Below are positions 43,260 to 49,140 of a DNA stretch of 64,000 nt, one piece after another. Each line of letters opens with the position of its first letter. The first letter of the stretch is position 1. Source of the DNA: Maricaulis sp. Lineage in GTDB: Bacteria; Pseudomonadota; Alphaproteobacteria; Caulobacterales; Maricaulaceae. The notes under the pieces are model-generated. The model saw nothing but the letters and a program-made list of their open reading frames with translations, made no database searches and was not told the DNA's origin. Made by a program: the position numbers and the translations under genes. Location: NCBI GenBank assembly GCA_017643585.1, contig JAEPND010000001.1, positions 443,834-507,833 on the forward strand. Direction: 5' to 3'.

Positions 43260-43344
43260 ATGGCGTTCGCAAAGAAGTTGCAGCCCCAAGGTTGAAAACC
43301 TACCCCGTTAACGGCTTTGATCGGGTGCAGAAGAAGGAAGAAGA

Positions 43345-43698
43345 ATGACCGATTCGACGACCATTTGGCACAATCCACGTTGTTCCAAATCGCGCCAGAC
43401 CCTGGCTCTTCTCGAGGCGCGGGGCGGTGAACTTGATGTGCGTGAATACATGGACGACATGCCCAGCATTGACGAGCTGAAGGATGTCATGACCAAGCTC
43501 GGCTTCACCTCGGCGCATGAATGGCTGCGCAAGAACGAGGCGGATTATCGCGAGCTGGGCCTCAAGGCGATCGAGGATGAGGAGGTCCTGCTGGATGCGA
43601 TGACCAAGTATCCGCGTCTGATCGAACGTCCGGTCGTAATCCACGGCGACAAGGCCATGATCGGCCGCCCGCCCGAGCAGGTGTTGGAACTGTTCTAG
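43345..43698 (+). CDS. arsC: Glutaredoxin-coupled arsenate reductase (ArsC/YfgD type)
   Basis: 117 residues with the active-site text HNPRCSKSRQ (Cys13), then YMDDMPSIDEL and RLIERPVVI holding the conserved Arg. The family reduces arsenate using glutathione and glutaredoxin. There is no arsR or arsB neighbour, so a YfgD-like role in general metabolism cannot be excluded. It converges with the DUF4166 gene by four bases. Confidence 0.93.
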   Translation: MTDSTTIWHNPRCSKSRQTLALLEARGGELDVREYMDDMPSIDELKDVMTKLGFTSAHEWLRKNEADYRELGLKAIEDEEVLLDAMTKYPRLIERPVVIHGDKAMIGRPPEQVLELF

Positions 43699-44225
43699 CC
43701 CGCCGGCGTCAGTCGACCGGAATATCTGACAATCCGCCCCAGGCCGGGCAGGCGGAGCTCGACATCGAAGAGATGTTTGCCGTCGGCTGAAGCTTCGCGC
43801 GCATCGACATGCGGGCGTATCAGGCGTGGCAGGGGAATTGACCAGAGTTGCACGCGCTCCAGTACAAACTGGATGCCGGCCTCATTGCCCTGCAACAAGA
43901 AGTGGAGGGTAAATGGCCCGAATTTCTCGAGCAGGCGATTTCCTTGTGTCCATTGCCAGGTCGCGAACCGTTGGCCGTCATACCAGCGTTCCAGCCATTC
44001 CCCCTCGCGCTCTGCGGTAACCCGGACGCGGGTGGGAATTTGCTGACCTGACTTTGGAAGTCGCATCAAATCCGCGAGCAGGCGTGAGAAGGCGTTGTTC
44101 CCGCGTTGGATATCGGCTTCACCGACGAGTTCGCAGACCGGGGTCGGTGCGTGGAGAAACCGTGTCGTGTCGGGCAAGGCGAGCCAGTCTTCCCCCAAAA
44201 TCCGCTCATACAGATGGTGTGTCAT
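43695..44225 (-). CDS. DUF4166 protein, distal copy
   Basis: 176 residues. It starts MTHHLYERILGEDWLALPD and has LLADLMRLPKSG, RWYDGQRFAT, LLEKFGPFTLHFLL and the closing RIVRYSGRL, which together match DUF4166, a beta-rich family of unknown function. It overlaps the epimerase gene by twenty bases. With the regulator, the other DUF4166-like gene and the epimerase it forms a tight unit of four. Longer in-frame starts lie within the epimerase and are not conserved. Confidence 0.82.
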   Translation of the reverse strand: MTHHLYERILGEDWLALPDTTRFLHAPTPVCELVGEADIQRGNNAFSRLLADLMRLPKSGQQIPTRVRVTAEREGEWLERWYDGQRFATWQWTQGNRLLEKFGPFTLHFLLQGNEAGIQFVLERVQLWSIPLPRLIRPHVDAREASADGKHLFDVELRLPGLGRIVRYSGRLTPAG

Positions 44226-45696
44226 GCACGTGATCCAGATGTTCATGAGGCGTGGCGTGCCTGGCCAGCAGGTTTTGGCACGCCCCCTCGATTTCCGGGA
44301 AGTTGAAGCGGAAACCAGCCGCTTGCAAGGCGTCGGGTCGAACGCGTTGGCTGGCCAGGAAGAGATCCGCCATTTCACCCAGAACGGTTTTCAGCAGGAT
44401 TGCGGGAATGGGCAAGAGCAGTCCGGTGCCGGCGATAGAGCGCATCACCTGGCGGTGACGGACCTGCGTCGGTGCCACAACATTGACAGGTCCATTCATC
44501 CGCGGCTGATCCAGCGCAAATTCTATGGCTCGCAGAGCATCAAGTTTGTGCACCCAGCTCATCCACTGTCGCCCGCAGCCGAATTGCGGCGTTACACCAA
44601 ATCTGCGGCCAAGGGCGAGTTTGGGGAAGGCGCTGCCATCGCGACCAAAGATCAGCCCGAAGCGCAGGCAACACACGCGAACGCCCGCTGCGGCGGCCCG
44701 GTTGGCCTCGTTTTCCCAGACCCGGCAGAGATCTGCGGTGAACTCGCCCAAGGGCCGGCTGGCATGTTCCGGTAACGCCGTTTCACCGCGATTGCCATAG
44801 GCGCCGACGGCGGACGCATTGACCAGAACTTGCGGCTTGTTGTGCAGGCGATGAACGAGCGCGATAACAGCGGCGGTCGGTGTCAGGCGGCTATCCAGCA
44901 ATACTTGTTTGCGGCCGTCCCACCAGGGCATGTCGGCGACGTTGGCGCCAGCCAGGTTGATGATGGCATCAATTTGCGTTTCCGCCGCAAGGCGTTGCAG
45001 ATCATCGACGACGCTTACATTCTTTCCGAACATGGCGGCCGCCTTGAGTGTGTCGCGGCTGAGTATGATCAGGTGGTCGCCACGCAGCTGCAGGCGGTGA
45101 ACCAAGTCCTGACCCAGAAACCCTGTGGCGCCCGTGACAAGAACGGTTCTGCCGCTGGCCACGACAGGCCCTGTCGCGATGCGACCGCGCGCGCGACGAT
45201 TGAGCGTGACCCAGGCCAAGGCATCGCGTATGCCCCAGATCAGCACGCCAGTGCCGGCGAGGCTGAAGAACAGGCTCCACAGTCCGCGATCAACCGGTGT
45301 CAGTGCGCCGGGCAATTGTGCCCACCCCCAGAGGATCGGGATCAGAAGTGCCAGGAATACTCCGTAATTGATGGCCAGGACCGTATGAAGAATGCGTTCC
45401 AGTGGCGGGAGTTTGCGCGTGCGATCTTCTTCCAGGAAATCGGCGAGCGTGATCAGGATTTCGCTCACCAGTACAATACCGAGGGCGATAGCCCAGGGGC
45501 CGTGCGGCTCGATCCAGCCGAAGATCAGGAATACGATGGCATAGATCAGTTCCCGGGCGGCGTGCAGACCGATTTCGGTTCGCGCAGAAACGCGCCCGGG
45601 TAAGCCTTCTGACAACTCGTGATGCCAGAGGTTATCGAACCCTCCGAGCAGAATCTGAACGGTCAGAATCACGAAGACGATGTCCAGAGCAGGCAT
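44206..45696 (-). CDS. Membrane-anchored TIGR01777-family epimerase
   Basis: 496 residues. Residues 1-185 carry about five hydrophobic helices, an unusual addition. The rest is an extended short-chain dehydrogenase of the TIGR01777 sugar-nucleotide epimerase type: VLVTGATGFLGQDLV for NAD binding, IINLAGANVAD, VNASAVGAYGNRGE and LRFGLIFGRDG. The ribosome site AAGGAGGG is five bases before ATG 45696. The upstream gene stops one base before this start, so the two are translationally coupled. Substrate unknown; the membrane domain suggests a lipid-linked one. Confidence 0.9.
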   Translation of the reverse strand: MPALDIVFVILTVQILLGGFDNLWHHELSEGLPGRVSARTEIGLHAARELIYAIVFLIFGWIEPHGPWAIALGIVLVSEILITLADFLEEDRTRKLPPLERILHTVLAINYGVFLALLIPILWGWAQLPGALTPVDRGLWSLFFSLAGTGVLIWGIRDALAWVTLNRRARGRIATGPVVASGRTVLVTGATGFLGQDLVHRLQLRGDHLIILSRDTLKAAAMFGKNVSVVDDLQRLAAETQIDAIINLAGANVADMPWWDGRKQVLLDSRLTPTAAVIALVHRLHNKPQVLVNASAVGAYGNRGETALPEHASRPLGEFTADLCRVWENEANRAAAAGVRVCCLRFGLIFGRDGSAFPKLALGRRFGVTPQFGCGRQWMSWVHKLDALRAIEFALDQPRMNGPVNVVAPTQVRHRQVMRSIAGTGLLLPIPAILLKTVLGEMADLFLASQRVRPDALQAAGFRFNFPEIEGACQNLLARHATPHEHLDHVHDTPSV

Positions 45697-45697
45697 T

Positions 45698-46336
45698 TCA
45701 ACCCTCCTTTGGGTCTGTGCAGACCACCCGTTGGTCAAACACCCGTCCGAACCACGCATGGTCGCTAGTCAGGTGAAATTCAAAGCGGTGATCGTCGAGC
45801 GCGCGGTGAACGACGCGGATATGTCCCGGCGTCAGCCAGTCGGGCAGGCGCAACTGGCGACAGCCAAGGTCCAGGAGAAAGGCGTCACTGGTGAAGACCA
45901 GCGCACCACCCTCCACACTCAAGAAAAGGCGCATCGCAACCAGGCGGGCGCATTCCAGGAGCCGATTGTCAGCGGCGATGCGTTTCGTGGAGCGTACGTG
46001 CTCGACTGTGCCGTCTGTGCGGATGTAATCGCGCATCCACGTCATGCCTGCGCGACCAGGCTTTAGCTGGATCCGCGCCTGAAGGTGGCCGCGGCTGGTG
46101 GGCAGTGGTCGCCCAATCAGGATGCACAGCCAGGCCATCAGGCGGCCGGCTGTGTTGGCGTGTAGCCATGCTTCCCCTTCATAGGTGCGGGGTGTTTCAT
46201 TGGAGAACCGCTTCCGGATGGCCGGGTGCAGAGACTCCCGTTGCTGCGGTGTCAGCAGCGCCAGGGGCGACCGCCCGTGTGTCGCATTTCTGGAATTTCT
46301 GTCTAGACAGAAATCGGGCGCCAAAAAAACACCCAT
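45698..46336 (-). CDS. DUF4166-like protein, proximal copy
   Basis: 212 residues. Segments AGRLMAWLCILIGRPLP, TWMRDYI, LLECARLVAMRLFLSVEG, LRLPDWLTPGH and HRFEFHLTS line up in the same order as the motifs of the DUF4166 protein at 43695, so I read them as paralogues. The ribosome site AGGAGG is about five bases before ATG 46336, which overlaps the end of the regulator gene by a TGATATG junction. An operator-like palindrome lies inside codons 8-14. No signal peptide. Confidence 0.7.
   Translation of the reverse strand: MGVFLAPDFCLDRNSRNATHGRSPLALLTPQQRESLHPAIRKRFSNETPRTYEGEAWLHANTAGRLMAWLCILIGRPLPTSRGHLQARIQLKPGRAGMTWMRDYIRTDGTVEHVRSTKRIAADNRLLECARLVAMRLFLSVEGGALVFTSDAFLLDLGCRQLRLPDWLTPGHIRVVHRALDDHRFEFHLTSDHAWFGRVFDQRVVCTDPKEG
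46296..46313. promoter_or_regulatory. Operator-like palindrome, internal copy
   Basis: TTTCTGT-CTAG-ACAGAAA, perfect seven-base arms with a fully palindromic centre, lies within the first codons of the proximal DUF4166-like gene. It matches the site at 46877-46894 in both arms. Confidence 0.65.
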
Positions 46337-46337
46337 A

Positions 46338-46862
46338 TCACCCTCCTACAAACTTTGCGATGCGGGTTCCGAGCTTCATCAGCTTGATCAGGGTTCCCTG
46401 GGGAACGTCACGCATCTGGCCGTACCAATCGGTCAGATTGGTGACGAAGTCCTCCATGCGCTTGAGGCGTTCCGCGGCCACTTTCGGGGTTTCGGGGTCC
46501 TGTTCCGCATAGGCTGCGCACTCCTGAAGAATGGCGATTGTTGGATCGATTTCCCGCTTCTTGCGCGCGTCTGCGATGGCCATCAGCATGTCCCAGGGCT
46601 CGTGCGTCGCCACGAAATGATCACGGCGATCGCCGAGTTTGTGCTCGAGCGAAACCAGTCCAAAGGCTTGCAGTTCCTTCAGCGAGTTGGAGACGTTGGA
46701 CCGTGCAATTTGCAGAATGTCCGTGATCTCTTCGGCGTGCAGCGGTTCGTCGGCCAGATAAAGCAGGGCATGGATCTGAGCGATGGACCTGTTCACACCC
46801 CATCGCGCGCCCATCTCACCCCAGTGGACGACGAATTTTTGCATGGGCGCCGAGAGTTTCAT
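46338..46862 (-). CDS. GbsR/MarR-type transcriptional regulator
   Basis: 174 residues with an extended winged helix: VVHWGEMGARWGVNRSIAQI, then HAEEITDILQIARSNVSNSLK (helix-turn-helix) and the wing KLGDRRDHFV, typical of the GbsR subgroup. In Bacillus GbsR represses choline uptake; here the targets are more likely the three genes that follow, since their junctions overlap and two matching palindromes flank this gene. ATG 46862 is preferred over GTG 46898 because the palindrome at 46877 lies between them. Confidence 0.88.
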   Translation of the reverse strand: MKLSAPMQKFVVHWGEMGARWGVNRSIAQIHALLYLADEPLHAEEITDILQIARSNVSNSLKELQAFGLVSLEHKLGDRRDHFVATHEPWDMLMAIADARKKREIDPTIAILQECAAYAEQDPETPKVAAERLKRMEDFVTNLTDWYGQMRDVPQGTLIKLMKLGTRIAKFVGG

Positions 46863-46876
46863 TGTTTTGTCCGCTA

Positions 46877-46894
46877 TTTCTGTACAGACAGAAA
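46877..46894. promoter_or_regulatory. Operator-like palindrome at the GbsR-type promoter
   Basis: TTTCTGT-ACAG-ACAGAAA with seven-base arms lies 15 bases before the regulator start. A second copy is at 46296-46313. The position suits autorepression. Confidence 0.65.
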
Positions 46895-47043
46895 ACACCG
46901 GTATTTGATTGTGCGCAAGCGCCGGATTGTCGCATCTTCAGGCGGGCAGGGCGTCGTGAATAGTTTAAAATTGGCTTTTGAGGCACAAGTTTAGCCAAAA
47001 TGGCCTGGTCGATTCTTGCGAGACTGCGGAAAGGCAGGTGCGC

Positions 47044-49140
47044 ATGGCGTTGCAGTCCTCGGGTGACGGAGTGAGTGAAGCCGAAATCGCGCGTCGGTAT
47101 ATCCGCGAGCTGTCCGAGCGTCTGATTGCCGTTCCCGATGACCAAGTGCTCGATGCGGCCGTCAAGGCGATCAGCGAGATCTGTGGCGCCTCGCTTGTGC
47201 TTGTAAGCCGGGTCTTCGATACGCGTCAGCCGGTCTTTGCCTATGCCATTCATGACCGCATTGGCGGTGCTACCGCCTATCAATACCCGCTGCGCGGAAC
47301 GCCGTGTGAGCAGGTCTTCAAAAATCGCCAGCCTTTCATCCGCACGACGGGTATCCAGGATGATTTCCCCGAGGATGCCGACCTGGAGGCCATGTCCCTG
47401 ACCGCTTATGCCGGCATTCCTCTTGAGGATGCCGATAAATACTGCATGGGGCTGACAGCGGTACTCTGGCAGGAGGAACCGCAGCACCCCTATGCGACGG
47501 TAGAAATGCTCAAGGCCATCGAGCCGCGTCTCGTTGCGGGCGTTCAGCGCCTTGATGAGGAGAAGCGCAAGGCGCACGAGTTGGAGCTTCGCCTCGATGA
47601 ATATGTCTCCCGGATGGATGTCGCGCTCGCATTCTCCGAAATTGGTGTCTGGGACTACAATATCGATACCGGTGAGCTGGTTTGGGACGAGCGGATGTAT
47701 GCGCTCTACGGGCGCAGCAGATCGGATGCCGCGCTGGCCTATGAAGCCTGGTTATCGACCCTTCATCCGGACGACAGGGTCGGCGCTGAAGCTGCGGTAT
47801 CGGAAGCCATCGGCCGGAAGTCACGCTTTGACACGCAATTTCGCATTATCCTGCCCGATGGCGCGATGCGGTGGATCCGCGCGGCGGGTCGCGTCGTTGA
47901 GATTTCCACCGGTCAAACCAAGATGATCGGGTGCAACTGGGATGTGACCCGTGATGTAGAGATGCAGACCCTGCTGGCCGCACAAAAAGACGCGGCAGAG
48001 GCTGCAAATGAGGCGAAGTCCCAATTCCTGGCCAATATGAGCCATGAAATTCGCACCCCGTTGAATGGCATTCTCGGCATGGCCCAACTGCTCCGGCGCA
48101 CGCAGCTGGATGAACGTCAGGATTATTTCACCAAAACGATCATTTCGTCAGGCGATATTCTGTTGGCGCTGGTCAATGATGTGCTCGATCTCGCACGCAT
48201 CGAATCCGGAGCACTGACGCTGGACCGTGAGGTGTTCAGCCTGAGCGAAATCATCCAGTCAGTCTGTAACACGCTGGCCGCGCCGGCTCGGGCGAAAGGC
48301 CTACAATTGATTGCCGAGGCAGATCTGGCTGAGGGTGACTATCGCTGGGGGGACGCCAAGCGGTTGCGCCAGGTTCTGCTGAACCTGATGGGCAATGCCG
48401 TCAAGTTCACGGACGTTGGCGAGGTCGTTTTGAGGGTCGAGCGACTTGAGGACGCGGTCATCCGTGTGGAGGTCGTCGACACAGGTCCCGGTATTGCTCA
48501 GGATCGCCAGGCTGGCCTGTTTGACCGCTTCACCCAGCTGGATTCCTCGAACACCCGTGTTCATGGTGGCGCCGGCCTGGGCCTGGCGATCTGTCGTGAA
48601 CTGGTCACGCTGGCAGGCGGGTTTATCGGTGTGAAAAGCGCCCAGGGCGAAGGGGCGACATTCTGGATTGAGCTGGAATTGCCGCTTGCGAGCGCCCCCA
48701 ATGCCGCAGACGACGGCGCGACCGGAGCCAGCACATCGCACGCTGCCACACATCTGAACGGGTCGAAGATCCTGATTGCCGAGGATGTGGCGCATAATCG
48801 GGACGTTCTTGTCGAAGCGCTCAAGGAACACGGATGCGACCTGGTGGCGGCTGCGGACGGGCGAGAAACCTTGGCACGATGGCGGGAGGGAGATTTCGAT
48901 GCCCTGCTTGTGGACCTGCACATGCCGCGCCTGTCCGGGGATGACGTCATCCGCCAGGTTCGGGCGCAAACGGGCAGTGGCGAGCGAGTGCCGATTTTCG
49001 CGGTGACGGCTGATGCATCGCTGGCCACCCGCGATGAATTGTTGCAACTTGGCGCGGATGAGTATTTCACCAAGCCAGTGGATCTCGACTTGTTGATCGA
49101 CCGGCTCAAACTGCACCTGCAATCCTCCACGCGAGTTTGA
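47044..49140 (+). CDS. GAF-PAS hybrid histidine kinase
   Basis: 698 residues, soluble. Order: GAF domain (about 20-165), PAS with PAC (about 190-305), HisKA with His334 in [12 protein letters not shown], HATPase ([24 protein letters not shown]) and a C-terminal receiver ([13 protein letters not shown], phosphoacceptor in [15 protein letters not shown]). No membrane helix, so it senses a cytoplasmic signal. ATG 47044 follows an AGGCAGG site. A single-domain receiver gene starts five bases after its stop. Confidence 0.95.

Follow-up and report, generated by a model that had tools for sequence, protein, structure and literature searches.

CydE of Alishewanella sp. WH16-1, a regulator of the GbsR type, represses its own operon and, in footprints, covers TATTTCAGAAATTTCTGAAAGTTCA at the promoter; it is reported to be co-transcribed with its targets and to be released by sulfate (PMC6096048). 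CioR of Chromobacterium violaceum is described as a direct autorepressor (PMC11837568). We analysed a 64,000-nucleotide stretch of a Maricaulis sp. genome (contig JAEPND010000001.1, positions 443,834 to 507,833 of the forward strand; hereafter the window), in which a GbsR/MarR-type regulator gene is followed by DUF4166, TIGR01777 and DUF4166 genes and accompanied by two copies of an 18-base palindrome. We consider it likely that this is an autorepressed GbsR-type operon whose regulator also acts on a second locus through a third copy of the palindrome, with the copy after the regulator gene serving as extra control.

The targets set this unit apart from the described ones. CydE and CioR control cytochrome bd genes (PMC6096048, PMC11837568), and GbsR, OpuAR and OpcR of Bacillus, repressors of the same fold family (template MJ223, 1KU9) encoded beside their targets, control glycine betaine synthesis and Opu transporters, with choline or betaines as inducers (PMC6207618). 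Family scans of the four window genes identified neither cytochrome bd genes nor glycine betaine or Opu genes. A survey of GbsR-type proteins placed 106 of 179 by their neighbours (transporter, cytochrome bd, betaine or Opu genes) and left 73 unplaced; its available text has no DUF4166 or TIGR01777 class, and the words epimerase and desaturase are absent from it (PMC6207618).

The palindrome before the regulator gene

Two exact copies of TTTCTGT-N4-ACAGAAA stand 581 bases apart in the window, as a preliminary description of this DNA had stated. Site 1 (46877–46894; TTTCTGTACAGACAGAAA on the plus strand) precedes the regulator gene and lies over its probable −10/start region, and site 2 (46296–46313; TTTCTGTCTAGACAGAAA) sits among the opening codons of the first DUF4166 gene, with 24 bases between it and the regulator stop. 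The distance between site 1 and the regulator ATG is 14 bases, not the 15 given earlier; a GTG in the same frame at 46898, on the far side of the palindrome, could instead be the regulator start. Allowing up to two mismatches, the window contains three matches to the palindrome, where 100 shuffles gave 0.07 on average, so chance is excluded as the source of the pair.

The site footprinted for CydE, TTTCAG-N6-CTGAAA, follows the same 18-base plan as the window palindrome, from which it differs by one base per six-base half-site and two per seven-base arm (PMC6096048). The words motif and palindrome are absent from the main text of the CioR paper (PMC11837568). Among related regulators, a site of the plan TTTCWG-N6-CWGAAA, which the CydE site follows, stands before the gene, at up to one mismatch, in 116 of 119 loci. 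This pooled set draws on 41 of the 65 regulator places in the order, fetched with wide flanks, and on the best 80 of 581 matches in a scan of named loci, with L094 and L095 dropped as duplicates of L045 and L048. Among those best 80 matches, regulators were also found in Kiloniella, Kordiimonas, sphingomonads, Azospirillum, Methylobacterium, Steroidobacter, Woeseiaceae, Duganella and others; judged by genus, the loci with a site before the regulator presumably span alpha-, beta- and gammaproteobacteria. In three of the loci (L075–L077), the GbsR-type regulator is divergent and stands before cydAB-like genes, and the operator is of the TTTCAG type, as in CydE; the cydAB-like calls were made by eye from the translation for L075 and by clustering for L076 and L077.

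Palindrome and regulator also occur together across genomes. In the order, the regulator was detected in 63 of 249 genomes at an E value of 0.001, 59 of them with a strong match. Of the 50 genomes that carry the exact palindrome, 48 belong to these 59 and 2 to the remaining 190 (Fisher p = 4.7e-38), while the pattern read backwards matches 4 of the 249. Of 19 genomes in the genus set, 15 encode the regulator, and the upstream site accompanies it at up to one mismatch in 14 (11 exact), with G054 showing two mismatches; the reversed control, at up to one mismatch, matched 3 of the 19. Conservation in close relatives, which the preliminary description had asked of both sites, thus extends to the upstream site, and to the downstream site in part (47 of 119 loci). 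That the palindrome precedes 116 of 119 regulators, co-occurs with them (48/59 versus 2/190) and shares the plan of the CydE footprint makes it very probable that the regulator uses it as its own operator.

The profile of site 1 over the 119 pooled loci extends the palindrome outwards, with wings of TTC at operator positions −8 to −6 and GAA at +23 to +25. A TTG-type −35 box lies 24–30 bases upstream of it (76 matches among 116 loci). In 23 of the 116 (L054–L056, L058, L060–L074, L093, L145, L149 and L151), an in-frame regulator ATG sits at operator position +8, the palindrome centre, and the encoded N-terminus reads M(T/S)E, as in TATATTTCTGTCATGACAGAAATT. This arrangement suggests that in those relatives the promoter and mRNA may be leaderless, with the operator covering the −10 element, the start point and the start codon. 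At its own promoter, a dimer of the regulator would cover the −10/start region by binding TTTCTG-N6-CAGAAA and the TTC/GAA wings, and would keep the regulator, DUF4166, TIGR01777 and second DUF4166 genes shut off until some signal releases it. We infer that blocking polymerase at site 1 is the simplest mechanism.

The regulator itself is of the GbsR type, as first proposed: it is MarR-like, and a profile built from 16 regulators matches MJ223 (1ku9_A), the nearest solved structure, at 2.4e-19 over positions 12–142. The NCBIfam model of one GbsR member, CudC (NF047500), matches all 16 regulators (best 8.4e-16), but the window protein, at 45.5 bits, stays far below its cut-off of 218. Residue 59, which we take from the MarR fold to lie in the recognition helix, varies with the half-site. 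The residue was scored over 113 of the 119 rows, with 10 symmetric and 5 one-sided sites separated. Where the site is pure TTTCTG, 93 of 94 regulators carry N or T at this position; of the 19 whose site includes a TTTCAG half, 10 carry V or M, residues that never accompany the pure type and that total 10 of the 113 overall.

A third exact site at a distant membrane-protein locus

In the 3.1-Mb genome the exact palindrome occurs three times, each at a gene start; the search proposed earlier for further copies thus raised the number of exact sites from two to three, and copies with mismatches did not exceed the reversed control. The third site (G000:C15:4696–4713) is part of an inverted repeat that spans 38 bases and leaves a single position unpaired. 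Seven bases separate the site from the first in-frame ATG of a gene for a hydrophobic protein of up to 153 amino acids, behind which a second such gene encodes one of 137. The likelier start is the second ATG, 19 bases from the site and preceded by GGAGG. Genes for a glutamyl/glutaminyl-tRNA synthetase and a NAD synthase flank the locus (Pfam), and no Pfam family matched either of the small membrane proteins. As this exact palindrome stands before a distinct locus encoding small membrane proteins, the four-gene unit is not self-contained, contrary to its first description, and the regulator would also repress this second locus through the identical third site.

Comparison within the genus points the same way. 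All 15 regulator-bearing genomes have an exact palindrome immediately upstream of a gene from this small-membrane-protein family. Among them are G098, G302 and G303, whose regulators are only 48–51% identical to that of the window and which look as if the regulator had been replaced. In G088 (99% complete), which lacks the regulator, the related gene is kept between the same flanking genes and the site is absent: the best palindrome match has 5 mismatches over 6 kb and 7 just upstream of the gene. Of the three other genomes that gave no regulator hit, G304 (89% complete) has neither the membrane-protein gene nor the site, G301 (94% complete) has no site there, its best match in 3 kb having 4 mismatches, and G306 keeps the site. 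The third-site protein also gave a profile match to a small membrane protein encoded after the regulator in sphingomonads (hhalign 90%, E = 1.6e-6), which is suggestive, although membrane proteins match easily. In L078–L088, a conserved stretch like CTGCGTCACCCCGCCACAT lies about 20–40 bases before the third-site operator, and part of it may be a −35 region.

Several observations weigh against this account of operator and regulon. With up to two mismatches allowed, the genome holds 7 matches against 8 for the reversed control, so only the three exact sites rise above noise; the looser TTTCWG plan gave 4 places against 2 in the control, the extra one at C1:4094. Site 1 is missing, at up to one mismatch, from three loci (L120, L153 and L159), and 11 of the 59 genomes with a strong regulator match have no exact palindrome. 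A sigma-70 scan over 43300–47300 returned no promoter (1.1 expected in shuffles), so the case for a promoter at site 1 comes from the relatives. Placed on a tree, the covariation of residue 59 reduces to 7 independent pairs in which the residue differs in 1–2 (p = 0.5–1), an underpowered comparison. Computation establishes the sites, their conservation and co-occurrence with the regulator, the third target and a predicted fold; binding, repression and a releasing signal are predictions. Finally, G040 and G067 carry the exact palindrome without a regulator, and G306 (69% complete) has the third site without a regulator hit, as might be expected if the palindromes belonged to another regulator or to a dispersed repeat unrelated to the GbsR protein. 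We regard that explanation as very improbable, given that the exact copies number three in 3.1 Mb and each stands at a gene start, that palindrome and regulator co-occur, and that the plan is shared with the CydE footprint.

The site after the regulator gene

Site 2 recurs at up to one mismatch in 47 of the 119 loci, always 14–65 bases past the regulator stop and whichever gene follows. When 4,000 stretches of 320 bases were drawn at random from these loci and compared with TTTCTGT-N4-ACAGAAA, 7 gave an equally good match. With start codons assigned by a simple rule, the site precedes the next gene in 35 of the 47 loci and lies inside an open frame in 12, so that the placement within the first codons, correctly noted for the window, is the minority arrangement. 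When inside the gene, as in L100, L113, L123 and L141, the site is itself translated, and the early residues S-x-x-T/S-E-I read as an imprint of the DNA site on the protein sequence. CydE also has a second site, of different sequence and in the promoter region, unlike site 2 with its position after the regulator gene (PMC6096048).

The preliminary description had suggested looping or road-block control. For looping, dimers on sites 1 and 2 would span the 581 bases between them and hold the regulator promoter closed. The regulator gene is indeed flanked by two exact sites, and both are present at up to one mismatch in 46 of 119 loci. However, their spacing takes 33 different values between 571 and 690 and shows no helical phase for periods of 10.0–11.0 (R = 0.10–0.12, p ≈ 0.63–0.73), and site 2 is absent from 70 of the 116 loci that have site 1. 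Looping is thus the part of that suggestion which we set aside as quite unlikely.

A box ahead of the operator bears on the two other explanations. In the window, the T-run TTTTTTTGGCGCCCGA (46314–46329, minus strand) directly precedes site 2 and contains a TTT at operator positions −12 to −10. All 23 loci in which site 2 has a short offset (14–28 bases) share this TTT, compared with 5.4% elsewhere in the same stretches, and it is followed by G (15/23) or A (6/23) at −9 and by C at −7 (15/23). In the 24 loci with a longer offset the box is not conserved, which counts against both explanations.

Site 2 could be the operator of a separate internal promoter, with the W-tract as UP element, TTGNC as −35 box and the operator over the spacer and −10 element. 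The order of W-tract, TTT, G or A, any base and mostly C at a fixed distance in 23 of 23 short-offset loci fits this layout, as does a start codon after site 2 in 35 of 47 loci, which leaves room for a transcription start and a ribosome site. On the other hand, nothing resembling a −10 element is conserved apart from the operator itself, and position −8, where A would be expected, is unconserved. We hold the internal promoter to be a tentative possibility. The surviving part of the earlier suggestion is a roadblock, in which bound repressor would halt RNA polymerase past the regulator gene, so that the regulator is made and the structural genes are not. The argument draws on the geometry of stalled polymerase and on its pause sequence: TTT at −12 to −10 followed by G or A lies near the expected RNA-end position of a polymerase halted by the site, and site 2 stays close behind the regulator stop whatever gene comes next. 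Yet the tract before the TTT is A-rich in 7–8 of 23 loci, not a plain U-tract, and hairpins of −12 kcal/mol or below ahead of the TTT occur in only 4 of 23 (L044, L047, L048 and L104). The roadblock is a more doubtful candidate. A terminator before site 2 was also considered as a general feature and rejected on the same hairpin count.

Overall, we favour site 2 as an extra control point for the structural genes, with the internal promoter slightly ahead of the roadblock.

The controlled genes and the regulon

The operon occupies 43695–46862 on the minus strand and is as tightly packed as first described, with gaps of 1, 1 and −20 bases and family matches for all four genes. It comprises the regulator (46338–46862; 174 amino acids; Pfam MarR_2, 39.9 bits, E = 4.9e-10), a first DUF4166 protein (45698–46336; 212 amino acids; Pfam PF13761, 78.5 bits, E = 6.8e-22), a TIGR01777-family oxidoreductase (44206–45696; 496 amino acids; NCBIfam TIGR01777, 277.8 bits against a cut-off of 207.35) and a second DUF4166 protein (43695–44225; 176 amino acids; PF13761, 92.9 bits, E = 2.7e-26); for the scan, the last two proteins carried additional upstream codons, 3 and 2 respectively. 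The first DUF4166 protein, previously called DUF4166-like, was assigned to the right family and scores as a true member. Its ATG shares TGATATG with the regulator stop, a coupled start, while the TIGR01777 gene begins one base past the first DUF4166 stop and is overlapped by 20 bases by the last gene. The oxidoreductase has a hydrophobic N-terminal region, with four hydrophobic stretches in residues 1–119, and a DUF1731 domain near its C-terminus.

Beside the regulator lies a divergent hybrid histidine kinase gene (GAF, PAS, HisKA, HATPase and receiver domains; 46978–49140); among the fetched loci, a kinase next to the regulator recurs only as a remnant match in L039, other kinase matches being kilobases away. 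The last gene of the operon runs tail to tail into an ArsC-family gene, with a 4-base overlap (43695–43698). An Rfam search over 43300–47500 matched no RNA element.

Across 121 loci (including the two duplicates), the commonest genes downstream of the regulator encode epimerase-type dehydrogenases (40 clustered entries) and DUF4166 proteins (35), counts that are rough because the neighbour gene callers were crude. Others, identified by Pfam on representatives, include fatty-acid desaturases, DUF3429, DCC1-like and DUF2269 proteins and a DoxX-fused dehydrogenase, along with small membrane proteins without a family. Desaturase genes occur in the operons of L047, L048, L070 (Pfam) and L131, and, by blastp clustering, of L044, L072 and L073. 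An AlphaFold2 model of the second DUF4166 protein (mean pLDDT 96.1) comprises helices and about ten strands. Its nearest solved folds are nitrobindin and fatty-acid-binding protein (FABP), to which the predicted beta barrel is weakly similar (Foldseek best E = 1.3e-3, probability 1.00, TM-score about 0.5). Because of this weak resemblance and the desaturases in relatives' operons, the controlled proteins look like a set for membrane or lipid upkeep, and we infer such a role for them. Two points tell against it: Foldseek returned no match to the model at E = 0.001 or below, and the lipid role is guilt by association.

Searches of the open-access literature, to which the survey of papers was confined, returned no mention of DUF4166, alone or with GbsR, and no paper combining GbsR with NAD-dependent epimerase and transcriptional regulator, or with palindrome, operator and repressor. 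Those on GbsR with desaturase, 'GbsR family' with Alphaproteobacteria, and TIGR01777 with regulon gave only papers unrelated by title, and GbsR with MarR family and Caulobacter gave only the CioR paper (PMC11837568). The type of mechanism proposed here is ordinary and known, the gene set looks undescribed, and the boxed second operator is an odd conserved feature.

A bolder reading, which we judge rather unlikely as a whole, is that GbsR regulons of this kind form an undescribed class, spread across the Proteobacteria and devoted to membrane-lipid upkeep. A start-point operator, over the start codon in some relatives, would be combined with a TTT-boxed second operator that uncouples the regulator from its effectors, by a roadblock or coupled to pausing, and DUF4166 would be a lipid-binding barrel. 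For the autorepressed two-locus operon that we prefer, the analysis offers a concrete operator, a putative regulon of two loci and, in a genome that lacks the regulator, a natural control. The genes concerned (DUF4166, TIGR01777 and small membrane proteins) are common but little studied. Moreover, the stereotyped second operator after the regulator gene may illustrate how a single repressor might regulate its own gene independently of its effectors.

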